Shown here: positions 7,945-29,553 of the stretch, one piece after another | How the letters are laid out: each line of letters opens with the position of its first letter | How positions within the stretch are numbered: the first letter of the stretch is position 1 | From: Prosapia bicincta | Lineage: Eukaryota; Arthropoda; Insecta; Hemiptera; Cercopidae | Direction of reading: 5' to 3' | NCBI GenBank assembly: GCA_036971475.1 | Contig: JBAIZL010000002.1 | Span: forward strand, 351,265,582 to 351,329,581 | Length of the DNA stretch: 64,000 nucleotides | The notes under the pieces: generated by a model | What the model saw: the letters and a program-made list of their open reading frames with translations, nothing else | Database searches by the model: none | Told to the model about the DNA's origin: nothing | Translations under genes and position numbers: made by a program

Positions 7945-7990
7945 TATTAGTAGATTTTAGGTAAAATATATTGCAAACTCAAAATTTAGC

Positions 7991-8438: not shown

Positions 8439-8531
8439 TATAAATCTCCTCTCTCTACTTAACTACCGCGTAGACATTGCTTTATGTATGACACCAATTC
8501 TACCACAATTTCAATTTTTTAGGAGGCAAAT

Positions 8532-8698
8532 ATGAATCTCAATATTTTTCAAAGAAGGAAAACAAATAAATATTCTGCTCTGCAGCTCACAGTGGAGCCG
8601 AGTTGGAGTGAGAGTAATTATGCGAGTTTTGCTGAGGAAGGTTACATCAAAAATGTCATTGCCTTTCGAGCGATCAATATGATTGCAAATGCCGCATC
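8532..8698 (+). pseudogene. Phage WO portal protein, 5' part, cut by the Polinton
   Basis: N-terminal 55 or so codons of a phage WO (HK97-like) portal protein, the ring through which DNA enters the capsid. A strong ribosome-binding site, AGGAGG at 8521-8526, precedes the ATG at 8532. The bacterial frame is sound up to NMIANAAS, where the Polinton begins. Bases 8693-8698 (CGCATC) are the duplicated target site. The frame continues beyond the element at 29,338. The extra 25 or so codons open into the element (to 8783) are transposon sequence. Confidence 0.85.
8693..8698. other. Left target-site duplication of the Polinton (CGCATC)
   Basis: CGCATC directly before the first base of the element is repeated directly after its last base at 29,332-29,337. 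A 6-bp duplication is the known Polinton/Maverick integration footprint. Confidence 0.95.
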
Positions 8699-9415
8699 AG
8701 TAGATGTCAAAACCACAGTTTCAGGCCAAACAGGTGGTTTTGATGAAAAATACGTTACTTTTCCGTTACAAACGGTTACGTGAGGTATGAGGGGTTGGTT
8801 TCAGCGATGATTGGAGGGTGACGTGAATGGTAGGAGGTATGGAATGTGCGCGGTTGTGCGCGGTTGTGCGTAGGTGTAGGTGGCAGGTGTTTTTTTTAGA
8901 AATACGTTAATTTTCCGTTAAAGACCGTTAGGTGAGGTAGTATGGGTTGGTTGGTGATATGCGTGTTCGCTGTTGTGTGATGTAATTAGAAGCATGTTCG
9001 GACATGTTGGGGGATAATGTAAAAACCGTTGTTTACCTAGAGAATGTGTGTATTATATTCTGTACCCAGTTCGTTGCTGACCTATATTTTTACAATAACG
9101 TCGCGTGTGTACGGTTGAAATCCGTTACGAGGTGATGGGATTATTTTCGCTATAAATGTGTCAGTCGCAAAGACTGAACGGTGACTTCTCTGTTTGTTCT
9201 CCAGATCTTTACTGGTTAAAAAATGTAAAAGCATGTTAATTTATTGATATAGGTTCCTCGCGTAAAACGTCATTGGGAACTTGTATAGATGATGACGACG
9301 ACATACTTGTGTTATAGTTGTGGGGATAAGTAGTTGGTTAGTATGTCAAGGTCATAGGAAGATGTTTTTAAAAAAAGTCACAAGCAGAAGTGCTTGCGAC
9401 ATTAATATTAATTTT
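8699..9415 (+). repeat. Left terminal inverted repeat of the Polinton
   Basis: The first 717 bases match the reverse complement of 28,615-29,331 almost perfectly. The repeat contains two related blocks (GTTACTTTTCCGTTACAAACG at about 8754 and GTTAATTTTCCGTTAAAGACCG at about 8907), a GTGTGATGTAATTA box near 8974, the GTCAAGGT motif at 9345-9352 and a hairpin at 9377-9400. A few differences from the right copy (for example A at 9380) show slight divergence. Confidence 0.95.
9377..9400. other. Hairpin at the inner edge of the left TIR
   Basis: GTCACAAGCA and TGCTTGCGAC form a 10-bp stem with one mismatch around GAAG. The right TIR counterpart at 28,630-28,653 is perfect. A GTCAAGGT motif (reverse complement ACCTTGAC) lies 24 bases away on the outer side. 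Confidence 0.75.
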
Positions 9416-9570
9416 GACAGGTATTTGGCCTGAATAAATTGATTTTAAAAACCTACCTCTGTTTCGAGTTATAAACATGTTCGGACCATTGAAAAGTGTT
9501 TTTAAGACTTTAGCTGCGCGCTTGTACGTGCGAGTGCTCACGATTGTGTGACGTAATTAAAAGAGTAGCG

Positions 9571-9578
9571 TATATAAA
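9571..9578 (+). promoter_or_regulatory. TATA box of the RING gene
   Basis: TATATAAA lies 50 bases before the ATG at 9628. A GTGTGACGTAATTA box just upstream (about 9546-9559) matches one inside the TIR at about 8974. Confidence 0.65.
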
Positions 9579-9627
9579 CTGCAATAGCTATCAAAAAAGT
9601 AACATTTGCCGTTCAGATTGACTAGCG

Positions 9628-9888
9628 ATGGACATCGTACAAATGGGAAAAAGCAAGGCATTCGTTCCCGTTGACATTTTCAGAGAGAAGGCTTTAGTTA
9701 CTAGGAAGACCTCATTGGCAGCAGATATACTTCGTGCAGAATGTAAAATCTGTTTATCAGAAGAAGTTCAAGTGGTTTATTTACCCTGCAGACACGTTAT
9801 TGCTTGTTTGCTTTGCGGATTAGCCTGCAAAACTTGCGGAATTTGCAGAGAAACTGTTGACTCTATTATGAGAATTTATCTTTCCTAA
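9628..9888 (+). CDS. RING-finger protein resembling the C-terminus of IAPs
   Basis: An 86-aa protein whose C-terminal half is a C3HC4 RING: C39, C42, C54, H56, C60, C63, C70 and C73, ending MRIYLS. That composition and ending are typical of the ubiquitin-ligase RING at the end of inhibitor-of-apoptosis proteins. No BIR domain is present here, but a separate BIR protein is encoded at 22,356 in the same element. A TATA box sits 50 bases upstream. In baculoviruses and insects, IAP RINGs act as E3 ligases against caspases or IAP antagonists. A role in blocking host cell death is inferred, not shown. Confidence 0.85.
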   Translation: MDIVQMGKSKAFVPVDIFREKALVTRKTSLAADILRAECKICLSEEVQVVYLPCRHVIACLLCGLACKTCGICRETVDSIMRIYLS

Positions 9889-10083
9889 CATTTGTAATAA
9901 TTTTTTGTTTAACAACAATATTTCTTTTTAATAGTATAATTATTGTAACTTATTATTTAAAAAATATATATTATGTCTTGTAGAAAAAATGTAATTTTGT
10001 GTTTGCTTTGACCAAGCTTAAGTCATTTTACACCTTTGCTCAACTAAAAATCCTCTATTTTATTAATATTCAAACATCAAACA

Positions 10084-10084
<1 letters not shown>

Positions 10085-10148
<64 letters not shown>
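10085..10148. repeat. CA-dinucleotide microsatellite
   Basis: About 31 uninterrupted CA units. Such long dinucleotide tracts are normal in animal genomes and very unusual in Wolbachia, so they support a eukaryotic location. A short TGTGTGTGTG tract about 35 bases downstream could pair with it. Confidence 0.97.
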
Positions 10149-10149
<1 letters not shown>

Positions 10150-10337
10150 GTGTTGGGCATAGTAGATATCCACGACATACTTGTGTGTGTGTTTGTTTTG
10201 AAATACAATGCAATTACGTTAGGATTAATAAAACTCACACTGACAGGTGTTAAGACAGGTGTTGTGGGGGACGGGTAAAACTAGGTTTGATGAACTCATA
10301 GGGGGGCAGGTGTTGCACTGCATGTAGGTATTAGCTC

Positions 10338-10345
10338 TATATAAA
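10338..10345 (+). promoter_or_regulatory. Orphan TATA box
   Basis: TATATAAA in the same style as the boxes before the coding genes of this element, followed about 30 bases on by GACTGTTCACTTC. No ORF of note follows for nearly 1.9 kb. Confidence 0.45.
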
Positions 10346-10870
10346 CGAGCGAAACGTTTAGAGACTGTTCACTTCTATGCATGACTTTATAGAGTGAATA
10401 CTATGTTCTTGTTAGCTTTTAAGATATTTCAATGTTTTAATATATTTTTTATTCCCTTGTATTTTATATAGGTTACTTTGGTTTTATGCTTTGTAAAGAA
10501 GGTATGCACCCAGAGATAACGGTTTTTTGCGGTTCAAAATAAGTGACCATGCTTGAAACCCAAAAAATCTGCGAAAATATCGTTTGGTGCCCATGCCAGT
10601 TGTATATTGTTCGCATATCTTGGTCATATCTTATTTCCAAAGCATATAATTTGAGATAACATCTCTGTATTGTGAGTTTTTGTTAGCTTGTTAAGAAATA
10701 CAATTATAATATATGTTTATTCCTTGTTGTACTTTATATAGCTCACTTTGGTTTACATTATATTATATTATTTAATTTTTTTGTGCATGTTAGACTAAAT
10801 GTTTAGATGTATTTTGTGGTTGCATGTTAAATTTTATTTTTATAATTATAGCATAAACACAGCATGTTTT

Positions 10871-11032
10871 TCAGGTTAAAATAATTATATATGTATTTAT
10901 TCCAGGTTTATATAAATAATACTAATATTTATTCTTGTTTCAGCAGTTTTTTCAGGTTAAAATAATTATATCTTTATTTATTTCAGGTTTTATATAAATA
11001 ATACCAATATTTATTCTTGTTTATTTTTCAGG
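10871..11032. repeat. Degenerate direct repeat, 81-bp period
   Basis: TCAGGTTAAAATAATTATAT...TATTTATTYCAGGTTTTATATAAATAATACYAATATTTATTCTTGTTT occurs at 10,871 and again at 10,952 with small differences. Further CAGGTTT blocks continue towards 11,060. The repeat contributes many CAGG tracts. Confidence 0.7.
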
Positions 11033-12232
11033 TATTATAAACAATATTACTCCTACTTTCAGGTTTACCTCAGGAATCTTGATTGTTTCTGATTTTGATC
11101 AATCCCCCCCTAATGTGATTTTTATTGGGTATCTTTTAATTACTTCAAGCCCATGTCTGGAGTATATTACACATAAGCACGTGCTATATATGTAGTTGGA
11201 ACAGAATGGGGTATCTCATGAGGTGAAAATCAATTTCGTAAAATTATTGTTGATTTAGTCTTGTGGAATACATAAATTGTTATTCAAAATACCGAAAATC
11301 ACATATTTGGGGGGGAATTTAATAACATTTTTTTATTGTTTACTTTTCAGGTAAAATAATATATGTTTCTTACTTCCAGGTTTACATCATTAATATCCCT
11401 AATACTCCTTCCTCTTTCACGCACGCTAAGGCTATCTCCGGATAGTTTGTCTGGGGGCAACCCTGGCAAAGCGTGTTCTCCTGGACATCATTGTTTCTGT
11501 TCACTGGGAGCTTGATATCCAACCCCCCACCCCACCCACCTTTTTTGTCTTTTCCCCGAGGTGAGTAAACGTAGCGGATGATTGGCGAGATGAATTTCGC
11601 GTCATTCGTTGCGTCACCCGGCTTCCAATAGTCATACAGCAAGAACGAATTCAGCGTATGTCTATTATTCACTTACACCCCAATCCCTCTAGGTTGCCGT
11701 TGGTCTATTCGGCTGGTGACGTGAAGAATTGCGTTCCAGTCTAGTAGAGCGCCTAGGGATCCCTTTGTGCAAAGTGTTACAAGGAGGATATTCAGTACAT
11801 TCTGCTTAGAGTCACTCCTTCCTATTCTTTCCCATAGTTTTAAGGAAAAAAAAATTTTTAATATTCAAACGACCTTGACCCAGTTTTTAGCTGGAAGAAA
11901 ATGCTTCACACATTTTCCAAAGCTTGTATTAAAGTTATAATACGTTCTGTTACCTCCTACACCGAAAAAAAATAATAATAAGTTCAATTCCCCCCGCAGA
12001 GTTACTTCAATTTGTGATTTGGAACACTTCAATTCCTTCCACCTCCCCCCGATATCTTCTTTACTCAACTATTCTACTATGTTAAACCTCACCTACCTCT
12101 TCACATCCAAAACGTCATTCTCCCCCTCCCTTCCTAGTGATATAGTATAACCCCTCCTTCGTTTTAAATCGTAAAAATAGCATAGACTCGCGATAACATC
12201 ATCATTTTGCTTCTCAATGTTATAGCTGAAGA

Positions 12233-12865
12233 ATGGATCCAACCGTCAGGATTTCTACAGCTCCTCTAAAAATGTCCACCATACATAGGAGAACTGAAAC
12301 CGCAAGCACTTCAAATACCGCAGCCTATCATTTCAACAACCTGGTTAAGGACCTACTGCTAACAGATAGTCCTGTTAAAAATTGTAAAAACACATCCTCG
12401 ACTATTTCTCCGAAACCTACTGCAGCCAAAAAACTTGAGTTTTTACCTACTCTACCCTGCAATTCCCAAAAGCAATTCCGACTTTGTACATACAGATTTT
12501 CGAAAGGGATAAAGAGAAACGGAATATGCAACGCTCGTATTGCAGGTGATGGTGTTATACTGTGCAGCCGTCATCGCGAGCGTAATACAACAGGCCTGAA
12601 AGAAACAAAATCTTCCACAAATAAGTCTTCAAAAAATATTTTGCCGAAAATAAAAATATCCAGACTCAAAACTAACACCAAATATCGACTTCTATCATAC
12701 TTGAACGATGATGAGGCCATCGTGGGAACTACAAAAGGTGCCTTCATCATACATTTCCCTTTTAAGAAGTTTAAAAAACAACCTCTTAAAGACGGATGGT
12801 ATCTTGAAGTAAAGTTTGCAGATCACAACTCCAAAAAGAAGCTTCTACATTGGGTTAAAAAATAA
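12233..12865 (+). CDS. Uncharacterised Polinton protein with a CxnCxnCxxH zinc-binding motif
   Basis: A 210-aa basic protein. The middle contains LCTYRFSKGIKRNGICNARI followed by ILCSRH: a Cys, then KGxxxxGxC, then CxxH. Motifs of this shape occur in proteins of large and mid-sized eukaryotic DNA viruses and probably bind zinc. The C-terminal third (LSYLNDDEAIVGTTKGAFIIHFP, then KDGWYLEVKFAD) looks like a compact folded domain. The N-terminal 80 residues are Ser/Thr-rich and probably disordered. A strong hairpin follows the stop at 12,935-12,978. Function unknown; DNA or protein binding is a guess. Confidence 0.65.
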   Translation: MDPTVRISTAPLKMSTIHRRTETASTSNTAAYHFNNLVKDLLLTDSPVKNCKNTSSTISPKPTAAKKLEFLPTLPCNSQKQFRLCTYRFSKGIKRNGICNARIAGDGVILCSRHRERNTTGLKETKSSTNKSSKNILPKIKISRLKTNTKYRLLSYLNDDEAIVGTTKGAFIIHFPFKKFKKQPLKDGWYLEVKFADHNSKKKLLHWVKK

Positions 12866-12934
12866 TACGATTCATCTTCTCAGCAACTGTTTCCTCATAC
12901 ACACCCTCCTTTCCTTCCTTTGCTTTCCTTTCCA

Positions 12935-12978
12935 AGAATAAAGCAGCTGATGGGTTCGCCCATCAGCTGCTCTATTCT
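12935..12978. terminator. 44-nt hairpin with TTCG loop after the zinc-motif gene
   Basis: AGAATA, one mismatch, AGCAGCTGATGGG, loop TTCG, then the exact reverse complement CCCATCAGCTGCT, mismatch, TATTCT. A 19-bp stem capped by a UUCG tetraloop is exceptionally stable. It lies 70 bases after the stop at 12,865 and is repeated at 14,149-14,192. ACCTTGAC follows at 12,993-13,000. A role in transcript 3'-end formation is inferred. Confidence 0.65.
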
Positions 12979-13135
12979 CTTTATTATAAACGACCTTGAC
13001 ACATATTTACCAAGGCTACCACACAAGAGCAGCATGTATAGAACACAAGCTTTTTATCTATTTATGCAACTTCATATTATATTATAAACTCACTATCTGA
13101 ATTCTCAGTATTATTTTGTTTACAGGTGTGGGAAT

Positions 13136-14107
13136 ATGTCTGAGGAAAACCTTCTCAATGAAATAACCTCGCTTAGGAAATTGATAAAGTCAAAGTATAA
13201 TCGGTTTAAGATACGAAAAATTGAGAGCGAAAGTAGAGTACAAAAACGTTTACATTATATTATAGAACCTATCAGAGAGTTGATTAAAACCGCTTTAGAT
13301 AAAATACTATCTGAAAAAGCTTTGTATAAATCCAAAACGCTAACCGCGTGTGATTCGGGAGAACGTTTTGCAAAGTATAGTTTTATTCCTAAAGCGGTGT
13401 CATCTCCTACGACCCACTCTTTGACGGACGACACAGTGTTAGAAAGGGTGAAAACAGACCATGCCTCCTTGTTATATCCTGAATTTACAGACTTAAATGT
13501 AATAGCTGAGACATCCGATCCCCCAGAACCCAGTGTCGGCGAAGTTATATCAACTCCGGGTGCTTATGACGTAGCAACAGAGTGGTTAGAGGAGACTTTC
13601 GTTAATCCGCTCACTAAATCTTACATGAAGAAATTCATGAATGACGCTGCCGGTAATAAAAAGAGTATTGATCATACATACGGTCCACGTTTGGAGAAAG
13701 ATAACATCTTTGTTGGTGACACGCAATTGTTGTTCGAAGAAGATGGTGGTCTGCGATTGGGTGATACCGTTTACAATCCGACTAAAGGATTGTATGAGCT
13801 TCTTTTCAAGAGAATACCTGATGATGACGTCTATGACGAGAATGATATCGCAGCCTATAAAGATATATTAGTCAAGACCAACGCTCATAGGATTGGATAT
13901 TTGCGAAACAACAGGATTAATCGCCAAGTAAATTCCTTTAAATATAGGACTGTATTAGCTCAAATGTTTCCCACAACATACTACGGATCAGGGATGCGAT
14001 ACAGCAATAGCAACAGCAGACACTTAATGATAGTTCCAGCTAAAGCGGGTAACTTTACTCAAACCCTTAAAGATATAAACATACTGAATAACGTAACACA
14101 GTTCTAG
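13136..14107 (+). CDS. Uncharacterised Polinton family protein, paralogue 1
   Basis: A 323-aa protein related to the one encoded at 20,537-21,444. Both start with a short helical segment (LLNEITSLRKLIKSK here) and a PIREL/PIVEPLKK block. Both share a C-terminal domain with YGPRL/FGARL, a GDT/GDA beta strand, NPTKGLYELLF/RGTRGLFELIF, IPDD/IPEK and TNAHRIGY/TNAHRKGY. This domain is common in unnamed proteins of arthropod and cnidarian Polintons (I believe Pfam DUF8207). No enzyme motif is visible. The ATG at 13,136 is the first in frame. A hairpin follows at 14,149. Confidence 0.8.
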   Translation: MSEENLLNEITSLRKLIKSKYNRFKIRKIESESRVQKRLHYIIEPIRELIKTALDKILSEKALYKSKTLTACDSGERFAKYSFIPKAVSSPTTHSLTDDTVLERVKTDHASLLYPEFTDLNVIAETSDPPEPSVGEVISTPGAYDVATEWLEETFVNPLTKSYMKKFMNDAAGNKKSIDHTYGPRLEKDNIFVGDTQLLFEEDGGLRLGDTVYNPTKGLYELLFKRIPDDDVYDENDIAAYKDILVKTNAHRIGYLRNNRINRQVNSFKYRTVLAQMFPTTYYGSGMRYSNSNSRHLMIVPAKAGNFTQTLKDINILNNVTQF

Positions 14108-14148
14108 GCACTAGGTCAGTATGTCAAGGTTATATATATATAGTTAAT

Positions 14149-14192
14149 AGAATAGATCAGCTGATGGGTTCTCCCATCAGCTGCTCTATTCT
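14149..14192. terminator. Second 44-nt hairpin, after paralogue 1
   Basis: AGAATAGA, one mismatch, CAGCTGATGGG, loop TTCT, CCCATCAGCTG, mismatch, TCTATTCT. It is homologous to the hairpin at 12,935-12,978 but its flanks are inverted: the purine-rich GGGAAGGGAAGGAAG lies downstream here, while the pyrimidine-rich complement lies upstream there. GTCAAGGT lies at 14,123-14,130. It is placed between a plus-strand gene and a possible minus-strand gene, so it could serve both. Confidence 0.65.
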
Positions 14193-14283
14193 TGGGAAGG
14201 GAAGGAAGCGAGGGATAGAGGGATGGGTGATAATGAGAGGATTGGTTTGGAAAAGGTTTTGAAATTTTCAGTACTTTGGGTTA

Positions 14284-14526
14284 TTACTGAGAGCTTTGAT
14301 CACTGTCTTCGAACGAAAGTCGTCTTCTTGCGGAGCATACACCGTCACGCCGAGGATTGCTACTTATCGGTGGCCTAGTAGCCTGCGGTTGCCCATCATA
14401 TGAATCTGTTGCATCTTCAGCATAAGACACTACATTTTCCTTCAACGAAGGATCTTCATCGTCCTCAAGTGAGTCTACAGTAGTTTGTAAAAAGTCTTCC
14501 AACGAGGTATTCATTACGGTTGTCAT
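14284..14526 (-). CDS. Small acidic protein, 80 aa, minus strand
   Basis: The only plausible minus-strand gene of the element. It starts MTTVMNTSLEDFLQTTVD, is acidic in the middle and ends with a basic patch and RRRLSFEDSDQSSQ. TATAAAAA on the minus strand at 14,701-14,708 could be its promoter, about 175 bases upstream. RRLSF fits the loose cyclin-docking consensus (RxL plus hydrophobic), though such short motifs arise often by chance. The length is modest and I do not recognise a family, so it may be a chance frame. Confidence 0.4.
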   Translation of the reverse strand: MTTVMNTSLEDFLQTTVDSLEDDEDPSLKENVVSYAEDATDSYDGQPQATRPPISSNPRRDGVCSARRRLSFEDSDQSSQ

Positions 14527-14805
14527 GTTTTGTATATCGACAGCCGTGAAAACAGCAAAAACTTGTTCAACTTCTTCCTCTGATAAAGTGGCTATCCACG
14601 ACCATTCTATACAATGAATAGGTTGTTCTATATTCAGAGGAGCTATGTTAATTATAGTTAGGTTTGAACAATTATAATTCGCTTGTTTGCAGTTTTTGCT
14701 TTTTTATACGTGCGCAATAACTTTTTGAAAGGACAGTGATAGAAGGGGGGGTAACAAGGATAATGCTTTTTTTAAATATATAGTGGTGGGGGATGTAGTT
14801 CAGGA

Positions 14806-14815
14806 TATATATAAG
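14806..14815 (+). promoter_or_regulatory. TATA box of the DNA polymerase gene
   Basis: TATATATAAG, 67 bases before the polymerase ATG at 14,882. Confidence 0.65.
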
Positions 14816-14881
14816 ACATGCATGATTTTAGTATCATTTTAGTTTCTAACTTGAATTTGAGTAGAACAAATATACTAAAAA

Positions 14882-17800
14882 ATGGAATCTAACAATGTTT
14901 TCTGCTGTGAAATTTGTAGAGATGAATTCAAAGATGAGTTACTGTATCTGATGCATTTTGAGTTATTTCACAGAGTCTGCACACAGGAAAATGAAGACAG
15001 AGAAGTTTACACAATTCCCGACTATGAAGGAACTATTCCAGCTGATGGAGAAAGGAACACAGAAAGGAATAGCTTATTCTCGTGCGAGATTTGTGGAGAA
15101 GAATTCAACGACCGCTTACTCCTGTTGTCGCATGTTGAGATATTCCATACACCTTTTCTCGATCAAGAAAACAACGAATTATACAGCTTACCAGACTTGC
15201 CGGAAACTAGAAAGGAATCAGTAGCTGACAGAGCAACAGTCATACATTACGCTCCCCCAAGACAAAAGTTGAAACACGAACTTCTATCTCAAGCGTTACC
15301 TAGGTCATATGTTAAACATTTCCTTATAAGGAACGTAACCGAACTCTATTTGGACGATTACATAATTGAAGCGAGCGATGTTGTAGTGGAGCTGTTGAAA
15401 GAGGAGCTCATTCGTTTAAATTTTATAAAGTTTGGACTTGTGATGGAGTCCGAATTTGTAAATGTGGAAGGAGAAATATCTCAGAGAGCGTTTATAACTA
15501 GGAACAGAAAAATTACTTTTGCATCAGACCTGGAAAACGTAGTCAGGGAATGTATGCAGGAGATTGTTTTGAAAATAACCGAACACGAAAGTCGGGGGTC
15601 TGGATGGACATTAGGTAAAGTTAAGAGTATGGTTGTAAGAGTACATAAACACGGGTATGGTAATCGTGGAAGTAGTTATATCCCGTTACCTAAGACGATA
15701 GCATCCACCTTGTCTTGCATTAATGTCCAGAACTCCGACAATAAATGTTTTCGATACGCAATGCTAGCAAAACATGTTGGTCCAAAAAAAGCATGTAGAG
15801 TTGACTACAAATACGAACAAGTTGGCAATAAGTACAACTTTGCTGGATTGCAATATCCGGTCTCAGTTGAGGATATAAAACTCTTTGAAAAACGAAATCC
15901 TGGAGTATCCGTGAACGTTTTTAGTCTCGACGAAAGTCATAATGTTTATCCGCTGAGAGTAGTAGAAACTGAAGATATTCGCCACACAGACTTACTACTT
16001 CTACACGATGGTGATGTCTCGCATTACGTCTACATTAAGAATTTTAACAGATTGGTAAGGGGCCAAATGAAAAGATATGATAGTAGCGTGACGGTATGTA
16101 AGAAATGTTTTGCTTTCAAATCTCTTTCAATGGAACTCGGAGGGCGACGGTGGTTGGCCGAACACAACCGCTTATGCGGAGTACATGCCCCCGTTAAAAT
16201 GGAATTACCTCATCGTGATAAACGGTTTGTTTCTTTCAACAAAATGAATCAGCTATACAGTGTACCTATAGTGATATACGCCGACTTTGAATCTACTTTG
16301 ATACCTATTAAAACGGTTATGGAAGATCCTGAAGACGTCACCAAACATTTATACCAAAAACACGAGCCTAATAGCTACTGCATGATGGTAAAGTCTACTT
16401 TAGACGAAAACCATCTCACGAGGTATGGGTTAACATCAAAACCGCTTGTTTACAGGGGTTGTGATGCGGTAAAGAACTTTCTACAACAGCTGAAACTTGT
16501 TGCCGAGAAAGTTGAAGGGATGTACTCAAATATTGTTCCCATGTTAGAGATGAGTGATGACGAAATACTTGCATACACATCCGTAACTACTTGTTACTTG
16601 TGTAAAAAATCTTTTACAGACATAAATCATAAAGTCCGTGACCATGACCATCTCACAGGAAAGTATAGAGGATCGGCTTGTAACTCGTGCAACATAAATT
16701 ATAAGCTACCTAGTTTTATACCTGTCGTGCTGCACAATTTAAGTGGATACGATTCACATTTTATAATACATGAATTGAACTTATGGAAAGGACAAATCGA
16801 TGTGTTAGCCTCGTCGAAAGGAAAGTTTATAAGTTTTTCGAAAAAGGTCGGTAAACTAAAATTGAGATTCATCGACTCTTATAGGTTTTTACCTTCAAGC
16901 CTTATGAAACTTAGCGAAAATCTATCACGGGACGATCTGCTGGAGACGAAGAAACTTGTACCTGAAGGAAAGCTTGAACTAGTGTTAAGAAAAGGTGTTT
17001 TCCCTTACGATTATATAGACGATGCAGATAGGTTCAACGAAACTTCGCTTCCTCCCATAGAATGTTTTTACAGCAAGCTAAATGAATGCGGAATTAGTGA
17101 TGAAGAATACCAACACGCATGTAACGTATGGAACGGAATGGAGTTTAAGACTTTGGGAGAGTACATCGATTTTTATGTACAACTCGACGTGACCCTTCTT
17201 TGCGATGTTATGGAGGAATTTAGAAACACCTGTATGAACGCTTACGGGCTTGATCCTCTCCATTCTTACACCTCACCAGGACTGGCGTGGCAGGCTATGT
17301 TGAGAGAAACAGGATGCACTTTGGAATTGATGATGGATGTCGATATGATCCTCATGGTAGAGTCGGGCGTCCGAGGCGGTCTAACGCAGTGCGTTAGGAA
17401 ACATGTTAGAGCCAACAACAAGCATTTGCCTGACTTTGATAGTGAGAAAGAGTCTGTCTACCTGGGGTACTTCGACGCAAACAACCTTTACGGGTGGGCC
17501 ATGTCGATGCCCTTGCCATCTGGAGGATTCGAATGGGTAGATCCAACTACGATAGAAGAAATTCAACATATCCCTCGTTACGGTTGTTTCGGGTATATTT
17601 TGGAGTTCGACTTTGAATACCCGGAGGCGCTCCATGATCATCACTACGATCTCCCTCTTCTACCAAAAAGCGAAGTTCCGCCTGGAGGTAAATACAAAAA
17701 GCTTTTGATGACTGTTGAATCGAAAGATCATTACGTCGCTCACTATTGGACCGTGCAACAAGCCATACAACTAGGACTTCGTATTACCAAAGTTCATAGA

Positions 17801-18724: not shown

Positions 18725-18736
18725 CGTAACAACAGT

Positions 18737-18746
18737 TATATATAAA
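18737..18746 (+). promoter_or_regulatory. TATA box of the integrase gene
   Basis: TATATATAAA, 48 bases before the integrase ATG and just after the polymerase stop. Confidence 0.6.
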
Positions 18747-18793
18747 AAAATCTAAATTCTATTATTTGTTTCCTATAGTCACTAACGGTAACG

Positions 18794-19726: not shown

Positions 19727-19769
19727 TAACGGATGTACAGTATAATATGAGTCTGTAAGCAGGCAAGAA

Positions 19770-20489: not shown

Positions 20490-20536
20490 CATTACGATAC
20501 AGCTATTCAACTGGATAACAAGCGCTAAGTAAATAC

Positions 20537-21444: not shown

Positions 21445-21458
21445 CTTCATTTATAAAG

Positions 21459-22310: not shown

Positions 22311-22355
22311 ATAGTATATATTCAAGAAAATATTTCAGTTTATAATATAGGAGAT

Positions 22356-22700
22356 ATGGTTGCATACCCGAAATACAGTACACCTGGAAGTAGGCTGGAA
22401 TCGTTCAACAACACCAGATTTGTATACTCCCGCCCTTATGCTTGGCAATTTGCAGAAGCCGGTTTTTTCTTTCACTCTCCACCTGATGGCGTTATATGCT
22501 TTTACTGTGGTGGTGGTTTAAAGGATTGGGAAGCACATGAATTTCCATGGATCGAACATGGTGGATGGTTTCCGAGGTGCGGTTATTTAAAATTAGTAAA
22601 GGGTGAGGATTTTGGAGCACGATGTCATGCTATGCGTAGGATGACGGTTTACTCATACCTAATACCAATACATCCCGCAAAGAAGAGGAAACAGGGATAA
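22356..22700 (+). CDS. Single-BIR inhibitor-of-apoptosis-like protein
   Basis: A 114-aa protein that is almost entirely one BIR domain. The zinc ligands C48-x2-C51-x16-H68-x6-C75 match the BIR signature exactly, with conserved RLESF before and WFPRC/YLKLV after. In animal IAPs, BIR domains bind caspases or IAP-antagonist peptides. There is no RING in this ORF; the element encodes a separate RING protein at 9628. The C-terminus is basic (KKRKQG). Capture from a host or viral IAP gene and later splitting is inferred. Confidence 0.93.
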   Translation: MVAYPKYSTPGSRLESFNNTRFVYSRPYAWQFAEAGFFFHSPPDGVICFYCGGGLKDWEAHEFPWIEHGGWFPRCGYLKLVKGEDFGARCHAMRRMTVYSYLIPIHPAKKRKQG

Positions 22701-22819
22701 GCAACGCGTTTATTGTACAAGGCTAATGTAATATATTGTTATATAGAGAGCGAAACTAAAAATAATACATATTTCAAATTTACTTCTTGAAGAGGAAACA
22801 TCCGTCATAAACTTACAAG

Positions 22820-23059
22820 ATGGCTTTGACTGCTAGATATATAGAGTATTATCCGCTACGCATCGAACAAAAAGATGCTGTTAACGTTTTCTCAACCGAG
22901 ATGAATAAGCTATTGGATCAAGGATTCAGCATGAGATTTACAGTCGGCGCCTCGAACTATGGAAAGGATACTACCGACGCTCGTGGAACGTCACCAATAT
23001 CTTATCCTCCAGAAGCGGAAAAACCAGCCGTTGACGGTATTGCGGAGGAGGGGAATTGA
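22820..23059 (+). CDS. Small hypothetical Polinton protein, 79 aa
   Basis: An open frame with ATG at 22,820 (MALTARYIEYYPLRIEQKDA). It is mildly amphipathic with a Pro-rich C-terminus and no recognised motif. It lies in the same orientation between the BIR and phospholipase genes and fits the density of the element, so it is probably real. Function unknown; a small structural or regulatory role is possible. Confidence 0.5.
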   Translation: MALTARYIEYYPLRIEQKDAVNVFSTEMNKLLDQGFSMRFTVGASNYGKDTTDARGTSPISYPPEAEKPAVDGIAEEGN

Positions 23060-23406
23060 TCGGAGAAGAGCTGTTACTTCCATTTACTATTTAGTTAAGT
23101 GTAATACAATGTAAATATTATTTTTTTGTTCAATAAAAAGTTAATGTGATACATGTGTTAGTAATTATTGTTGTAAAAAGAATAACAATTATTAAATATA
23201 TGCTACAAAAAAAATATAAAAAAATAATAAACAAAATAAAACAAGAAATAATTATTGCAAGCATTTGGATGTGATAGAGGTATTTCTTTATTTTAAAAAC
23301 TTGGTATGAAGTGGTTCGTTATTATAAAGTAACAAGTTTCTACAACAAATGGACATTCTATATGAAGTAACCGTGTAGATAAATAATAGATACATATATA
23401 TTTAAT
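23060..23406. other. AT-rich intergenic stretch of the Polinton
   Basis: No gene. Contains AATAAA-type polyadenylation signals (for example AATAAAAAG near 23,132), long A and T runs, and ATAAATAATAGATAC just before the next ATG. It probably holds the 3' end of one transcript unit and the promoter of the next. Confidence 0.5.
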
Positions 23407-23997
23407 ATGTTAAACGGTAAAACATTTAGTAACGGAAAGAAGTTTGTAAGAGAAGGAAGTGGTTTATCATCATCACTTGTAAGACTTGCGAAAAAAGCAG
23501 TCGGTATTATTCCAGTTAGTGCCGTAGTCAACAGGGCTATCGACGCTTTACCGGTGGAATTACACATACCGGGTGGGTATAGATATTGCGGACCAGGTAC
23601 AAAGTTGAAAAAACGTTTGGCACGAGGAGATCGGGGTATAAATAAGTTAGACGAAGCCTGTAAGGTCCACGACATAGTTTATTCCCGATATTCTGATTCA
23701 GCATCACGTTCTGTAGCAGACAGGGTTTTAGCAGAAAAAGCTTGGCAAAGGGCTAAGTCTAGTGACGCTAGTATTGGTGAAAGAGCGGCTGCTTTAGCGG
23801 TGGCCGGAGCGATGAAGGCAAAAAGTGCAATCGGAGGTGGACGGATGAAAAGGAGAATAAGAAAAAGACGTAAAAGGGTGCCTGTCAGAAGAGTTGGTCG
23901 AAAGAGGACAGACAGTAAGTACAGGAGAAGACGTAGGAACAATGGATCAAAAAACGGGAGGGGGTTGTACCTGCGACCGTACAGAAATGTGTATTAA
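23407..23997 (+). CDS. Parvovirus-VP1-type phospholipase A2 domain protein with arginine-rich tail
   Basis: A 196-aa protein. Residues 56-95 form a PLA2-like active site: the Ca-binding loop YCGPG at 60-64 and the catalytic HD pair in DEACKVHD at 88-89, the layout of the parvovirus VP1 unique region. The last 60 residues are extremely Arg/Lys-rich, which suits DNA or RNA condensation or nuclear targeting. In parvoviruses the domain helps particles leave endosomes; a similar virion role here is inferred. It lies directly upstream of the protease and capsid genes. The frame is intact. Confidence 0.85.
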   Translation: MLNGKTFSNGKKFVREGSGLSSSLVRLAKKAVGIIPVSAVVNRAIDALPVELHIPGGYRYCGPGTKLKKRLARGDRGINKLDEACKVHDIVYSRYSDSASRSVADRVLAEKAWQRAKSSDASIGERAAALAVAGAMKAKSAIGGGRMKRRIRKRRKRVPVRRVGRKRTDSKYRRRRRNNGSKNGRGLYLRPYRNVY

Positions 23998-24383
23998 ATA
24001 GTAGTAGAAAACTCGTATTACCGAACAAGGCATTGACGAATGAAGAGCTCGAACGTTACGCATACTGCCTTTCTCTACCGAATTTCAGAGGCGTCTTTAT
24101 GAGAGACAATCTTCCGTCAAAACCTCGTGGAAACGAATCAGCTATAGTGAACTTGGACAGCACCGTCGGGTCGGGAACGCATTGGGTCTGTTACAAAAAA
24201 TTAGGAAGCACAGTGTTTTACTTCGATAGTTTCGGCAACTTGCCACCACCATCGGAATTGAATCAGTATTTACGATCGGCAAAAACAATTCTATACAATT
24301 ATGAAAGAAGACAACCGGAAGACTCGTTAATTTGCGGCCATTTATGTTTAGAATTCCTGGCAAATAAAGTCAGTGTCATTTAA
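23998..24383 (+). CDS. Adenain-like cysteine protease, start codon unclear
   Basis: Maturation protease of the Polinton/adenovirus family (C5/C48-like). Counted from a TTG at 24,033, the catalytic His lies in SGTHWVCYKK (about 50), the Asp region in VFYFDSFGNLPPP (about 65) and the nucleophile in ICGHLCLEFL (C101). LPNFRGVFMRDNLP is the typical N-terminal signature. No ATG precedes this signature in frame; the frame is open further upstream and overlaps the end of the PLA2 gene. Either the ATG was lost (TTG at 24,033 or an earlier non-ATG start) or it is made with the upstream gene. It ends at 24,383, two bases before the penton ATG. Confidence 0.88.
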
Positions 24384-24384
24384 G

Positions 24385-25098
24385 ATGTCTTCGTACACGG
24401 TATCCCTTATTGGGGACGAGTCTATACTGAGGAGCGTGCTGTTTCCACCTTTAAGGCTGCACGAAGAAAGCCAGTGGGAAGCGGCTCTATTAGAATTCAC
24501 TACATACAATTCCATACCAAACGTCACCAAAGGCATTAACAACAAATTACACTACAGCAAAGCGGGTGACGTAAAAAACAATAAAATATACGAGATAGAA
24601 TTGCCTACAGGGTCTTACGAAATTGACGAAGTGAACAGAGTGTTACAGAGGTCCATACGTTACAGCAACTTTTCGCTTACGGCAAATAACAGCCTCCTTC
24701 GATGCGAAATAGTTACTAAATTCAACATACATTTCGATCAACCACATTCTATAGGATCGCTGTTGGGGTTTAAAAGAAACCTCGCACCGAACGAAGAAAA
24801 GAAACCTCATTTAGGCGATGAAGAGGTCAATATTATAAAGGTAAACAACATCGAAATTTCCTGTAACATCATAGACGGTTCTTACAAAAACGGAAAGAGG
24901 GAACATATTATACATTCGTTTTTTCCATCGGTTCCGCCGGGATATAAAATAATAGAAGTACCACAAAATCTGGTTTACTTGCCCATAAAATTCAGTTTGA
25001 TTTCAGAAGTCGTAGTGAGAGTGCTTGATCAAAACGGGGATCCAGTTGATTCTAGAGGAGAAACTATAAGCATCAGGTTGCATATAAAACGCGTATGA
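24385..25098 (+). CDS. Penton-like minor capsid protein
   Basis: A 237-aa protein from the ATG at 24,385, starting MSSYTVSLIGDESI. Its position directly before the major capsid gene, length and beta-rich pattern (ILRSVLFPPLRL, FTTYNSIPNV, the LPTGSYEIDEVNRVL motif, IGSLLGFKR) match the single jelly-roll minor capsid proteins of Polintons. The LPxGxYxIxxLN-type motif is the most diagnostic part. The stop at 25,096-25,098 overlaps the ATG of a small frame (ATGA), suggesting tight coupling. The frame is intact. Confidence 0.88.
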   Translation: MSSYTVSLIGDESILRSVLFPPLRLHEESQWEAALLEFTTYNSIPNVTKGINNKLHYSKAGDVKNNKIYEIELPTGSYEIDEVNRVLQRSIRYSNFSLTANNSLLRCEIVTKFNIHFDQPHSIGSLLGFKRNLAPNEEKKPHLGDEEVNIIKVNNIEISCNIIDGSYKNGKREHIIHSFFPSVPPGYKIIEVPQNLVYLPIKFSLISEVVVRVLDQNGDPVDSRGETISIRLHIKRV

Positions 25099-25328
25099 GT
25101 ATGGGGTTAGACTTTATTAACGATACTCTTGGTGGAACGAAATTCAGTTCTTGTGAACAGATAGAAAGGATAACAAGTGAGAACAAGACGTTTCTAGAAA
25201 GAATAGGTTTCACAGTTCTTAACGATGGATATATTAGACATAGGCCACGGTCCGGTGTTCGACGAAACGATTTGGGAGAAGGAGTATCACAGCCACAACC
25301 CTTACGCTTCATCCAGATTAGGAAATAA
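25095..25328 (+). CDS. Small overlapping frame before the major capsid gene
   Basis: A 77-codon frame whose ATG overlaps the penton stop as ATGA. It begins MSMGLDFINDTLGGTKFSS and overlaps the first 100 bases of the capsid gene in another frame. The tight ATGA junction and correct spacing suggest a translated small protein; alternatively it is a leader that lets ribosomes reach the capsid ATG at 25,225. No family recognised. Confidence 0.4.
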   Translation: MSMGLDFINDTLGGTKFSSCEQIERITSENKTFLERIGFTVLNDGYIRHRPRSGVRRNDLGEGVSQPQPLRFIQIRK

Positions 25329-26451
25329 CGACGAAATCCGTATTCCTATTCAATCGCAAGATGCGTACACTCTGCCGTCGGAGAGCTACCTGTACATCGA
25401 AGGAAAGGTGACGAAAAAAGATGGGACTTTGGGAACGGAAGTCCCGTTTGTGAATAACGCGATGTCGTATCTGTTCGAGGAGATTAGATATGAAATTTCC
25501 GGTGTTACGGTTGATTCCGTGAAACGCGTGGGAATAACCAGCACTCTAAAAGGCCTAGTATCTCTTTCGGCTCCAGATCGCAACATTATAAGAATGTCCG
25601 GTTGGTTGTTTCCTACCGATAGTAATGAAAAACCAAACTCAACAGGGAATTTTGACTTTTGTATTCCGCTTCAATTGTGGTTGGGGTTTGCAGAGGATTA
25701 CCGTAGAATAATAATGAACGTCCGTCAAGAGTTGGTTCTAATAAGATCTTCTTCAGACAACGATTGCATAATAGGAGCTACCGGTGCAACCGATGCCACA
25801 TTGGATTGGAAATGCGTTTTGGAAAAGATAGTATGGCGGGTGCCGCACGTGAGATTGTCTGATGAACACAAGGTCAGGCTTTTGAGAGAGCTAAACGATG
25901 ACCACGAGATCGTGGTACCATTTCGGAGTTGGGAGTTGCACGAATACCCCGTACTGCCGCAAACTCAGAGACATTCATGGACGATAAAAACGTCGAACCA
26001 AATGGAGAAACCAAGATTTGTAATTTTTGCATTTCAGACTAACAGGAAGCACGTCATTACAAGATATTCAACTAATTTCGATCATTGCAATTTTAAAAAC
26101 GTAAAACTGTTCCTAAACTCGCAGTTTTTCCCGTACGACAACGTTAGCGCCGATTTTTCGAAAAAACGTTATTCAATGCTGTACGAGATGTACGCTAAGT
26201 TTCAATCATCGTATTACGGGCGTAAGAACATGCCTCTGTTTTCTCCGGATTCGTATGAGGAATATTCACCAATAGTGGTTATTGATTGTTCGAAACAGAA
26301 CGAATCTGTGAAGAGCTCAACAGTTGATATCAGGTTAGAATTTGAGACAGCAGAAAATATTCCTGACAAAACGGCTGCTTACTGTTTGATTTTACACGAT
26401 ACGATAGTAACTTATACGCCTCTCACAGGGAGTGTAAAGAGAGTGTCGTAG
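25225..26451 (+). CDS. Major capsid protein, double jelly-roll type
   Basis: A 408-aa intact frame beginning MDILDIGHGPVFDETIWEKE. Its order after the penton gene, length and internal signatures (NDEIRIPIQSQDAYTLPSES, FVNNAMSYLFEEIRYEI, VPFRSWELHEYP and a C-terminal CLILHDTIVTYTPLTG) fit the Polinton double jelly-roll capsid protein, related to those of adenoviruses and virophages. It would form hexons of an icosahedral particle. Preservation of this gene together with penton, protease and PLA2 suggests the ability to make virions was under recent selection. Confidence 0.93.
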   Translation: MDILDIGHGPVFDETIWEKEYHSHNPYASSRLGNNDEIRIPIQSQDAYTLPSESYLYIEGKVTKKDGTLGTEVPFVNNAMSYLFEEIRYEISGVTVDSVKRVGITSTLKGLVSLSAPDRNIIRMSGWLFPTDSNEKPNSTGNFDFCIPLQLWLGFAEDYRRIIMNVRQELVLIRSSSDNDCIIGATGATDATLDWKCVLEKIVWRVPHVRLSDEHKVRLLRELNDDHEIVVPFRSWELHEYPVLPQTQRHSWTIKTSNQMEKPRFVIFAFQTNRKHVITRYSTNFDHCNFKNVKLFLNSQFFPYDNVSADFSKKRYSMLYEMYAKFQSSYYGRKNMPLFSPDSYEEYSPIVVIDCSKQNESVKSSTVDIRLEFETAENIPDKTAAYCLILHDTIVTYTPLTGSVKRVS

Positions 26452-26489
26452 AGGTGTTTTGTTTTGATCAGTGGGAGGGGGTGGCGATG

Positions 26490-26497
26490 TATATAAG
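26490..26497 (+). promoter_or_regulatory. TATA box of the 293-aa gene
   Basis: TATATAAG, 106 bases before the ATG at 26,596, following the capsid stop. Confidence 0.55.
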
Positions 26498-26595
26498 AAA
26501 GTCGGATGGAGTTGTTTTCATTTAAAACTTTGATCTCGGCCAGTCAAGATCACTTTCCAGACATTCATAGTTAGAAAGGACCTTGAACGCACATA

Positions 26596-27477
26596 ATGAA
26601 CACATGTAGTGAGACGGACGCACCTTTAGCGGGTGGTGTTAAGTTGGACGAAAACGTGGATGATACGGTTTCTAATGAAAATTCAAAAGAAACTCGTGTA
26701 GAAATACCAGAGTTTAAAGACGTTGACAACGCTCTAACCTCGCTCTATAACAACGCAATACGTCTAACGGAAATGAAAAGGAACAGGGAAGACGATCTTG
26801 AAGACGACATAAGCGATATGTTTATCGGTGCCTATCTCCGTGCTGTGTACCCACTAACTGCGTGCATGGGAAAGAACGTGACAGTAGGGGTTTTTGAGTC
26901 TCTGTCTCTTTTGCCAGGAGTGCTCATCAACCACTCCAAAAGATACATATTATTTACAGCGGATTCGTTCAAGACCTTTGTCGGCTACTTGAACGTTTTT
27001 GAAACCTTCCTAGCCTGTCGAGAAAGCGGAAAGAAGACACGTTTGATATTACCCGGAACAGATATCGAAGTTGACACCGTAAAGATATACGGTAAACACT
27101 ACGTTCGTATTAAAGATTATCATCGGAACGGGCAAAAGGTTATGTTGACGCCTAGAGAATTTTACGTACTAAATGGTGTGGTTCCTGCCGTTGAAAGGTA
27201 CTTGGAACAGTTGAAGTTGTCTGAGGACAATATTAGAGACTATGTAGAGGCTTGTTTAAAAGGTGGGATTGGTGAGCCACCAGAGTACGGGTACATTGAT
27301 TATAGCATATACAACCGGTTGCCACAAGAGGTTGAACTCAATAGACAGCTGTTGCTTATGCTGGATCAAGAAACGAGCGTAGAAGACGAGGAGGAAGATA
27401 TCAAGAACGTTGAACCGATAACGTCGGGGGAAGATGAGAACGCTACGAGCATTCTTCCTAAGCAGGAAGAGGTATAA
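26596..27477 (+). CDS. Uncharacterised 293-aa protein with possible PC4-like domain
   Basis: An intact frame with acidic ends and a central folded region. Residues of about 90-200 include TVGVFESLSLLPGVLI, YILFTADSFKTF and then VKIYGKHYVRIKDYHRNGQK followed by VMLTPREFYVL. The last stretch resembles the PC4/p15 single-stranded-DNA-binding fold (beta strands, a K-rich loop, then a helix starting LTxxEF), so a role in replication or late transcription is possible. The similarity is only by eye. It is the first of three short units at the right end, each with its own TATA box. Confidence 0.6.
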   Translation: MNTCSETDAPLAGGVKLDENVDDTVSNENSKETRVEIPEFKDVDNALTSLYNNAIRLTEMKRNREDDLEDDISDMFIGAYLRAVYPLTACMGKNVTVGVFESLSLLPGVLINHSKRYILFTADSFKTFVGYLNVFETFLACRESGKKTRLILPGTDIEVDTVKIYGKHYVRIKDYHRNGQKVMLTPREFYVLNGVVPAVERYLEQLKLSEDNIRDYVEACLKGGIGEPPEYGYIDYSIYNRLPQEVELNRQLLLMLDQETSVEDEEEDIKNVEPITSGEDENATSILPKQEEV

Positions 27478-27480
27478 AAG
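27473..27480 (+). promoter_or_regulatory. TATA box of the 158-aa gene
   Basis: TATAAAAG, 82 bases before the ATG at 27,555; its first bases overlap the stop codon of the previous gene. Confidence 0.6.
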
Positions 27481-27554
27481 GCGAAAAGGATCGAGACCTA
27501 TTTGCAGTCTGCGTCCGGACGTTTTGGAGAATAGAGGACAAGGAAAAAGAAATA

Positions 27555-28031
27555 ATGGAACGATCTGCTTGCGTGTTAGAGATGCAATGTTTTAAAGGAG
27601 AGTGTAACGCGTTTATAGTGAAGGAACTCGTATTATTGGACCTACAAACAAACGCTACCTACACGTTCCTGTTTAAACCGCCTTTCGAATACTCTACCTT
27701 GAGCAATAAATACAAGAAAACCAACAATTGGTTGAGTAAGAATTATCATCACATATCGTGGGAGGAAGGGTTCACCGATTACGTAGAGCTTCGTAACGTC
27801 ATGTTACACTACGTGAAACAGTTCGATCTGATATTTACAACGGGTGACGAAAAGGCGAAATGGATTCGTGGTTTCACTTCTGCTGAAGTTATCGATATCG
27901 GTTCCTCAAGAGAATGGACCTTCCTGAGAGGAATCCAGAACGTTTGTAAAAGCGTTATAGCCCCGCAACACAAAGAAACGAATTGCGCGCTTCTACGTGC
28001 GATGAAAGTCGCGACAGTCTTAAGACTATGA
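27555..28031 (+). CDS. Uncharacterised Polinton protein, 158 aa
   Basis: An intact frame, MERSACVLEMQCFKGECNAF, then KELVLLDL and LFKPPFEYSTLSNKYKKTNNW. The pattern of hydrophobic strands, an FKPPF turn and a conserved HHISWEEGFTDY segment suggests a compact globular domain. I recall similar unnamed proteins in arthropod genomes, but cannot assign a function. A degenerate nuclease-like (RNase H/DnaQ) fold is one possibility, without visible catalytic residues. Confidence 0.6.
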   Translation: MERSACVLEMQCFKGECNAFIVKELVLLDLQTNATYTFLFKPPFEYSTLSNKYKKTNNWLSKNYHHISWEEGFTDYVELRNVMLHYVKQFDLIFTTGDEKAKWIRGFTSAEVIDIGSSREWTFLRGIQNVCKSVIAPQHKETNCALLRAMKVATVLRL

Positions 28032-28060
28032 CTACAATAATAAGGGAGGGGGAAACGCAT

Positions 28061-28068
28061 TATATAAA
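28061..28068 (+). promoter_or_regulatory. TATA box of the last Polinton gene
   Basis: TATATAAA, 90 bases before the ATG at 28,151. Confidence 0.6.
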
Positions 28069-28150
28069 CCAAAGAGAGCGGTGGTTAGACATCATTTCCT
28101 TATAGACCTCAGGCAGAGCTACACGATACAGTTACTTCTCCTCCGTAACT

Positions 28151-28495
28151 ATGAACCGCGAAGCAACTTTACAGTCAATAATTCAACAGTTCAACTCAAA
28201 GTCTAAAGCTGACGGGTTGCCCATAAAGAAATGTTCAGAACTGAAGGAAGGTAAAAAGTATTCGGTGCACTACCTCAGAAAAGTCGACACTACCTACGGG
28301 GAAGCAGTTGTTGCTGCGCTCGGAGGTTTCCCATACAAGGAAGGAGAAGACCCGAAATTCCAGATATTCCTACCTAGACGCTTCATCACGCTGTTGGCGA
28401 ACATGGATTTGGATGAGGTGGGTGCCGGCGAATTTCACATAGTCTCCAACGGACCGTCCGGATGTGGGTCCACCGAACTGACTTTACATCAGTAG
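28151..28495 (+). CDS. Uncharacterised Polinton protein, 114 aa
   Basis: An intact frame, MNREATLQSIIQQFNSKSKA. It contains a KKYSVHYLRKVDTTYGEAVV segment and FQIFLPRRFITLLANMDLDE, then IVSNGPSGCGSTELTLHQ. The strand pattern (KxGKxYxV...TxYGExVV...FLPxRF) is reminiscent of OB-fold or similar small beta proteins. A single-stranded-DNA-binding role would fit a replicating element, but this is inference. It is the last gene before the right TIR. Confidence 0.6.
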   Translation: MNREATLQSIIQQFNSKSKADGLPIKKCSELKEGKKYSVHYLRKVDTTYGEAVVAALGGFPYKEGEDPKFQIFLPRRFITLLANMDLDEVGAGEFHIVSNGPSGCGSTELTLHQ

Positions 28496-28614
28496 CTGTA
28501 TTAGTCTAAAAAAAAAATTGTATTTTTGTTATAATATAGCGTTGTAATTATAAGATGCTATTGTATTTGTGTAAAAAAAAAATAATAAAAAAAAATAATA
28601 AATAAATAAATAAA

Positions 28615-29331
28615 AAAATTAATATTAATGTCGCAAGCACTTCTGCTTGCGACTCTTTTTAAAAACATCTTCCTATGACCTTGACATACTAACCAACTAC
28701 TTATCCCCACAACTATAACACAAGTATGTCGTCGTCATCATCTATACAAGTTCCCAATGACGTTTTACGCGAGGAACCTATATCAATAAATTAACATGCT
28801 TTTACATTTTTTAACCAGTAAAGATCTGGAGAACAAACAGAGAAGTCACCGTTCAGTCTTTGCGACTGACACATTTATAGCGAAAATAATCCCATCACCT
28901 CGTAACGGATTTCAACCGTACACACGCGACGTTATTGTAAAAATATAGGTCAGCAACGAACTGGGTACAGAATATAATACACACATTCTCTAGGTAAACA
29001 ACGGTTTTTACATTACCCCCCAACATGTCCGAACATGCTTCTAATTACACCACACAACAGCGAACACGCATATCACCAACCAACCCATACTACCTCACCT
29101 AACGGTCTTTAACGGAAAATTAACGTATTTCTAAAAAAAACACCTGCCACCTACACCTACGCACAACCGCGCACAACCGCGCACATTCCATACCTCCTAC
29201 CATTCACGTCACCCTCCAATAATCGCCGAAACCAACCCCTCATACCTCACGTAACCGTTTGTAACGGAAAAGTAACGTATTTTTCATCAAAACCACCTGT
29301 TTGGCCTGAAACTGTGGTTTTGACATCTACT
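28615..29331 (-). repeat. Right terminal inverted repeat of the Polinton
   Basis: Reverse complement of 8699-9415. It includes the perfect hairpin at 28,630-28,653 and ACCTTGAC at 28,678-28,685. It ends ...CTACT immediately before CGCATC. Confidence 0.95.
28630..28653. other. Perfect hairpin at the inner edge of the right TIR
   Basis: GTCGCAAGCA, loop CTTC, TGCTTGCGAC: a 10-bp perfect stem. Like the two intergenic hairpins, it is followed within about 25 bases by ACCTTGACA. Confidence 0.8.
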
Positions 29332-29337
29332 CGCATC
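29332..29337. other. Right target-site duplication of the Polinton (CGCATC)
   Basis: Direct repeat of 8693-8698, immediately after the last base of the element. Confidence 0.95.
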
Positions 29338-29493
29338 TTCAGTGCCCTTTGTTCTCTATCGACTTACTAGTCAGACAGATAAAAGTCCACCCATGCTAGA
29401 AATTACATTATTCTTCTAAGCTTCATGACCCTCAACGAAAAGAGGGAAGCATTTGGCCTGCCGCCATTGCCGGGTGGTGATGAATTGGATTGA
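29338..29493 (+). pseudogene. Phage WO portal protein, 3' remnants
   Basis: The portal frame resumes directly after the target duplication (SVPFVLYRLTSQTD) and fails within about 25 codons. A different frame then gives the expected portal C-terminus, FMTLNEKREAFGLPPLPGGD, with the stop at 29,491-29,493. The central 250-300 codons of a normal portal are missing, so a large internal deletion occurred independently of the transposon. The deletion joint lies near 29,390-29,425. Confidence 0.78.
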
Positions 29494-29553
29494 AAATTTG
29501 ACATTATTTCTTTAATATGTTAAAATAGGTTTTATAAAATTGTGAGGCAAACC

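Follow-up and report, generated by a model that had tools for sequence, protein, structure and literature searches.

A Polinton in a nuclear Wolbachia-derived block of Prosapia bicincta, very probably inserted after the block had been transferred and copied

How does a eukaryotic transposon come to lie inside a bacterial gene, and in which order did the two arrive? The question is raised by a 64-kb stretch of the Prosapia bicincta genome (C146:351265582-351329581, hereafter the window), located on a contig of 404.8 Mb, at 351.27 Mb, within an assembly of 2.2 Gb, where a Polinton/Maverick element interrupts the remnant of a portal gene attributed to Wolbachia. The analysis described below leads to the conclusion that the Polinton very probably inserted in the nucleus, after the Wolbachia DNA had been transferred and copied. 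Positions refer to the window and, unless otherwise stated, to its forward strand.

Long terminal inverted repeats (TIRs) and a 6-bp target-site duplication define the Polinton/Maverick elements, and both are found here. The element spans 8699..29331 (20,633 bp) with the ends AGTAGATGTC...GACATCTACT, and is flanked by two identical copies of CGCATC at 8693..8698 and 29332..29337, a 6-bp direct repeat having a chance of 1/4096 at fixed ends. The left TIR (8699..9415) and the right TIR (28615..29331, reverse strand) are 717 bp long and differ by 6 mismatches; in a separate repeat comparison they extend to 728 nt at 98%. The original prediction of a Polinton with 717-bp inverted repeats and perfect CGCATC duplications was correct to the single base, and the junctions of its range 8693..29337 are exact, but this range takes in both duplications in addition to the element proper. 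The element belongs to a family well represented in the host genome. At least 43 matches to the left TIR were found in it, of which 40, lying on 12 contigs, are close to full length with identities of 96-100% (a lower bound, with 40 of 587 first-look candidates scored and the two ends of the element itself counted in the 40). On C199, two ends of this family are found 44 kb apart, with TATGCT on either side, and the nearest other copy end examined (L002) is 99.5% identical over 2.2 kb.

The DNA receiving the element is a tract following the gene order of Wolbachia wStur. On the left, positions 5948..8698 correspond to wStur L011 4658-7161 with gaps: 6346-6707 is unmatched, at 7366/7375 about 495 bp of wStur L011 are lacking, and the RelBE-like segment that adjoins the portal (about 7837-8494) is not found in wStur L011 at the same place. 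On the right, positions 29332..31892 correspond to L011 7162-11162, with a deletion in the portal gene and an unmatched stretch at 29527-30689; from 30340 onward the right tract matches wOc (L009). It includes an open dnaN frame (30753-31886) whose product is 94% identical to that of a Wolbachia metagenome-assembled genome and 89% to that of the Wolbachia of Atemnus politus. A scan of genome contigs with a DnaN alignment returned 12 loci, 9 of which are Wolbachia or Rickettsiales; the scan of genome contigs with the single protein returned no match. On the 94% DnaN match and the wStur-like gene order, the donor of the tract is judged to be Wolbachia.

The insertion site itself lies in a portal gene of HK97 type, with a 5' part at 8532..8698 and 3' remnants at 29338..29493 that carry an internal deletion at about 29417. 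The frame reads ...INMIANAAS to the left of the Polinton and ASSVPFVLYRLTSQTDKSP to the right, and is continuous once the flanks are joined. The claim that the frame is cut and then resumed therefore stands as far as the joined flanks are concerned, but it resumes for only about 27 codons before a deletion of some 830-860 bp within the gene, so that the portal was broken before the insertion took place. The wStur orthologue is uninterrupted at the site, with a single TGCATC, and its portal frame is likewise broken.

The gene had been described as a Wolbachia phage portal, and its relation to phage WO was therefore considered. The wStur orthologue fragment matches PF04860 (HK97 type) at E=4e-15, above the Pfam cut-off, and the 73-residue fragment of the window does so at E=0.01, below the cut-off; both fragments match PHROG portal families, the window fragment at 3e-5. 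Compared to a phage collection that includes at least 5 Wolbachia phage records, the portal fragment matched 5 records at E<=1e-5, none of them Wolbachia phages, the relation to WO being judged by this collection search and not by a direct comparison of portals. When 6000-8698 and 29332-35000 were compared to the same collection, all records returned were of Wolbachia phages, and they matched the RelBE-like part or stretches some 50 bp long. Phage WO was rejected as the source on these grounds: the portal fragment matched no Wolbachia phage and the other matches were confined to the parts just named. The 26 frames of wStur L011 around the portal look housekeeping-like by eye, dnaN among them. 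According to the available part of PMC9203015, Wolbachia possesses HK97-like gene transfer agent (GTA) genes, including a portal, that are dispersed in the chromosome and separate from phage WO. The present gene resembles that system in being an HK97-type portal in a Wolbachia chromosome and differs from it, as far as that part of the paper goes, in being broken both here and in wStur. On these comparisons it is assigned as an HK97-type, GTA-like portal and not as one of phage WO. The earlier description is thus supported in part: a Wolbachia derivation and the portal family are retained, but bacteriophage DNA as a separate traveller, and with it a separate layer of transfer, is not supported, the portal being HK97/GTA-like, unmatched by Wolbachia phages in the collection searched and already decayed. 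Since the interrupted portal would be a decayed GTA-like gene of the Wolbachia chromosome, probably no working gene was lost.

Was this DNA nuclear when the Polinton arrived? In the assembly, which is the only basis for this point, the Wolbachia tract is embedded in a host chromosome, the 404.8-Mb contig, and repeat DNA with copies on many contigs lies about 90 kb from it. In order to find further copies of the site, the genome was searched with the right flank (29332-31900), which gave 19 matches from 17 candidates. Counting the window, the site is covered at ten places; the remaining match rows do not run across it. All 9 of the 9 other nuclear places found are empty, the two flanks being joined in each by a single CGCATC. 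Five of them lie on C146 (285.27, 352.39, 280.36, 352.28 and 366.48 Mb), two on C340 (13.29 and 11.59 Mb) and one each on C313 (213.79 Mb) and C361 (13.22 Mb); in order of number, the nine loci are L031, L032, L033, L034, L035, L036, L044, L046 and L049. The Wolbachia-derived DNA was already nuclear before the Polinton arrived, as had originally been proposed; the position on the 404.8-Mb contig and the nine empty nuclear paralogues support this.

The empty copies differ widely in their distance from the window. In an alignment of six copies, the 366-Mb copy differs from the window by 0.15-0.26% and the 285-Mb copy by about 4.2-4.4%; L032, L034, L035 and L036 differ by 4.2-5.3% to the left of the site and by 10.2-10.7% to the right. 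L033, L044 and L046, aligned separately from this set, match the window at 87-93%. The portal deletion is common to the window, the 366-Mb copy and L031-L036. It is not found in L044 and L046, from which the RelBE-like segment is absent as well, so that the locus must have been transferred, or have arisen, in two versions at least. Eight nuclear copies more diverged than the 366-Mb copy are empty, and the insertion is therefore later than the transfer whatever the nature of that closest copy may be.

The closest copy, or sister, permits a finer dating. It lies in inverted orientation at 366.48 Mb of C146, at a distance of 15 Mb from the window on that contig, and is about 99.65% identical over the stretches compared. 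Leaving aside insertions and small indels, it matches the window over positions 1-62495, and outside the window it matches L022, L024, L027 and L028 too; the comparison of L057 returned simple repeats only, its expected partner being just beyond the stretches compared. There are 150 mismatches in 42,827 aligned bases (0.35%) when L051, which contains a pair of inverted elements resembling long interspersed nuclear elements (LINE), and L028 are left aside, and 256 in 60,298 (0.42%) when both are counted. Eight differences were found in 3,845 polarised sites; 4 are assigned to the branch of the window and 3 to that of the sister, with 1 unresolved. Three insertions of the window are missing from the sister: the Polinton, an element of 3,918 bp and another, Polinton-like one of 13,078 bp, the last two being described below. 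The sister further lacks a repeat of some 700 bp located at L028:500-1194. Conversely, the sister alone contains, no more than 50 bp from the Polinton site, a LINE-like insert of 3.2 kb that has a 15-bp duplication and a frame of 913 amino acids, reverse-transcriptase-like by eye. At mutation rates of 2.8-7e-9 per site per generation, the divergence of the sister would cap the age of the insertion at about 0.25-0.63 million generations.

The sequence of events can be proposed as follows. Wolbachia DNA would first have entered the nucleus, probably as several pieces or from several strains. The block would then have been duplicated, or would have been present as two haplotypes. After the two copies had split, the window copy would have gained the Polinton, the second Polinton-like element and the 3,918-bp element, and the sister its LINE-like insert. 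At the Polinton site, the integrase of this element or of a sister element would have cut the target with a 6-bp stagger and joined a linear copy, gap filling giving rise to the duplication.

Two observations weigh against this order of events. The junctions come from the assembly only, and the TIRs show six substitutions, whereas 2.4-2.9 would be expected of an insertion dating at the earliest from the sister split (P 0.04-0.07). These six are absent from the four other ends compared (L002, L005, L006 and L007) and consequently look private to this Polinton; the ends L004 and L008, with indels and 67 and 120 raw mismatches, were kept outside the comparison. The excess is mild and could reflect differences predating the insertion or an older insertion. 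As the count disagrees mildly with the divergence of the sister, dating by the TIRs only was set aside.

The explanation that best survives besides, possible though doubtful in our opinion, regards the sister as the other haplotype misplaced by the assembler and the Polinton as a heterozygous insertion. A divergence of 0.35% falls in the range of heterozygosity, and the shared block is extensive: on the right it takes in the repeat DNA lying some 90 kb away, on the left it extends to Wolbachia DNA at a distance of about 100 kb, and bacterial 16S genes occupy mirrored places about 122 kb out, at 351.14 and 366.63 Mb. The inverted orientation and the 15 Mb separating both copies on one contig argue against it, as does a single probe about 190 kb to the right for which no match was obtained, the offset of this probe being uncertain. 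This explanation would in any case leave the main conclusion unchanged, because the other eight empty copies stand.

Insertion after the split is also to be preferred to an early one, in which the Polinton would predate the block duplication and would have been removed from the sister, either through precise excision or through gene conversion with an empty copy as donor. The slight excess of private TIR substitutions is in line with such a history. It is nevertheless improbable: the eight more diverged copies are empty too, and two clean losses would be needed, since the sister has a single CGCATC and also a single CTCGTC, the target sequence of the second element. An assembly artefact, symbiont contigs and the Polinton having been misjoined, draws on the assembly-only basis of the junctions and appears more improbable still in view of the perfect 6-bp duplication, of nine empty copies distributed over four contigs (C146, C313, C340 and C361), of a second element in the block, flanked by a duplication of its own, and of a different insert in the sister. 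Finally, a jump of the Polinton inside living Wolbachia, followed by its arrival along with the transferred DNA, can be given next to no credit, as no point in its support was found, the nine other nuclear sites and wStur are all empty and ends of the same family are present on 12 contigs.

The gene content of the Polinton was analysed by means of Pfam, and all the genes listed here lie on the forward strand. An open frame of 1280 amino acids (14882..18724) encodes a family B DNA polymerase (PF03175, E=2e-26) with an additional Endonuclease_7 domain; by family it would be of the protein-primed type, priming being predicted. A search with residues 300-800 of this polymerase matched 3,814 proteins among 7,978 scored candidates, and the best 120 of the 3,814 comprise insect and spider proteins at 38-46% and others at up to 63% over nearly the whole stretch. 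It is followed by a retroviral-type integrase (rve) of 310 amino acids (18794..19726; PF00665, E=3e-9) and by a packaging-ATPase-like frame (19746..20489) that one in-frame stop splits into 19746-20057 and 20058-20489. This frame contains what we take to be a Walker-A-like motif; Pfam gave a weak Pox_A32 match (E=0.042) for 20085-20486, and neither piece matched at 0.01. A BIR (inhibitor of apoptosis) domain protein (22356..22700, E=3e-16) and a phospholipase A2-like domain protein (23407..23997, E=7e-12) come next, followed by a candidate adenovirus-type cysteine protease (24033..24383) with a weak PF00770 match (E=0.012) under the curated cut-off. A double-jelly-roll major capsid protein of 408 amino acids (25225..26451) was identified at E=8e-118 (PF21738). 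The frame adjoining it (24373..25098) has no Pfam match and is a candidate penton (minor capsid) by position only, the penton lying beside the major capsid gene in Polintons according to the available part of PMC4028283. With respect to the Polinton/Maverick elements described there, the present element is typical in its length of 20.6 kb, its long TIRs, its 6-bp duplication, its family B polymerase and RVE integrase, its double-jelly-roll major capsid and, tentatively, its packaging-ATPase-like gene. It differs in that the ATPase frame has one stop, the protease is weakly recognised, the penton is placed by position and BIR and phospholipase A2-like genes are present in addition. A 177-bp tandem duplication (99%) was also observed at 21874-22227, within an open frame of the Polinton whose start is collagen-like by eye.

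The remaining insertions of the block may now be described. The 3,918-bp element (49158..53075) is solo-LTR-like (long terminal repeat) by its ends only, TG...CA, and has a 4-bp duplication, ATAC. It sits in one arm of the inverted LINE-like pair, which extends over 45199-54403 with arms 98-99.5% identical around 47.84 kb and is present in the sister too; one frame of the pair, of 827 amino acids, has no Pfam match and another has a match to RVT_1. The second element starts at 62496 and runs to the end of the window (62496..64000), then through L023 to L024:1573, for a total of 13,078 bp. Its ends are AGTAGA...TCTACT and the duplication CTCGTC is found on both sides (62490-62495 at the left). 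It encodes a family B polymerase of 1268 amino acids; in a scan of 5 out of its 9 listed frames, Pfam recognised neither an integrase nor a capsid. The ends, the duplication and the polymerase are the grounds for calling the element Polinton-like. A minisatellite (about 142 bp) was observed in copies within its ends.

Two side observations concern other organellar and bacterial sequences of the genome. Long mitochondrial-type COX1 copies are many and occur on C313, C146, C199, C8 and small contigs (for example C313:243596341 and C146:232919093); as several of them lie within chromosome-sized contigs, nuclear mitochondrial transfers seem frequent in the same genome. COX1 translated from contig C154 with the invertebrate mitochondrial code is 95% identical to that of Mahanarva (Cercopidae) and 88-91% to those of many further spittlebugs, by which the host would be a cercopid close to Mahanarva; as equally scoring copies occur in chromosome-sized contigs, the sequence compared may itself be nuclear. 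A bacterial 16S gene at C340:60376727-60378243 outscores the other four 16S matches scored and perhaps belongs to a symbiont other than the source of the Wolbachia block.

The locus had been presented as an unusual record of two layers of transfer. The phage layer falls, and host transposons in nuclear Wolbachia DNA are already published. Host retrotransposons have been described within the nuclear Wolbachia DNA of Drosophila ananassae (PMC4299567, in its available part), a case similar to the present one in that duplicated chromosomal Wolbachia DNA was invaded by host transposons; here the invader is a Polinton, the junctions are exact to the base and nine empty paralogues order the events. 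In a preprint on three Curculio weevils (PMC13419823, in its available part), Mavericks are reported around and containing Rickettsia-derived DNA. Both cases involve young Mavericks in or around bacterially derived DNA of large insect genomes; there, mostly, Rickettsia-derived genes lie inside Mavericks, whereas here the Polinton lies inside Wolbachia DNA, the host order is another one and the insertion is demonstrated by empty sites. Among the literature matches listed, mostly titles and starts of abstracts, none was seen to report a Polinton lying within nuclear Wolbachia DNA together with empty sites. What is new here is a clean, datable and well controlled example, and the description as unusual is to be softened accordingly.

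Two elements, the Polinton and the Polinton-like one, lie 33 kb apart in one Wolbachia-derived block, both probably acquired after the split from a 99.65% identical sister. Nuclear Wolbachia islands might on this view be favoured landing sites of a currently mobile Polinton family, tolerated nurseries of virus-like elements within dead bacterial DNA, where insertions may still segregate in the population; we consider this idea speculative and rather unlikely. The locus itself provides an ordered record: entry of bacterial DNA into a chromosome, copying, and later invasion by a virus-like transposon. The nine empty copies act as built-in controls, and plain bacterial contamination becomes an unlikely cause of the join. 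Multi-copy bacterial blocks are in this respect targets of known history, where one can count and date the insertions of Polintons and establish their order.

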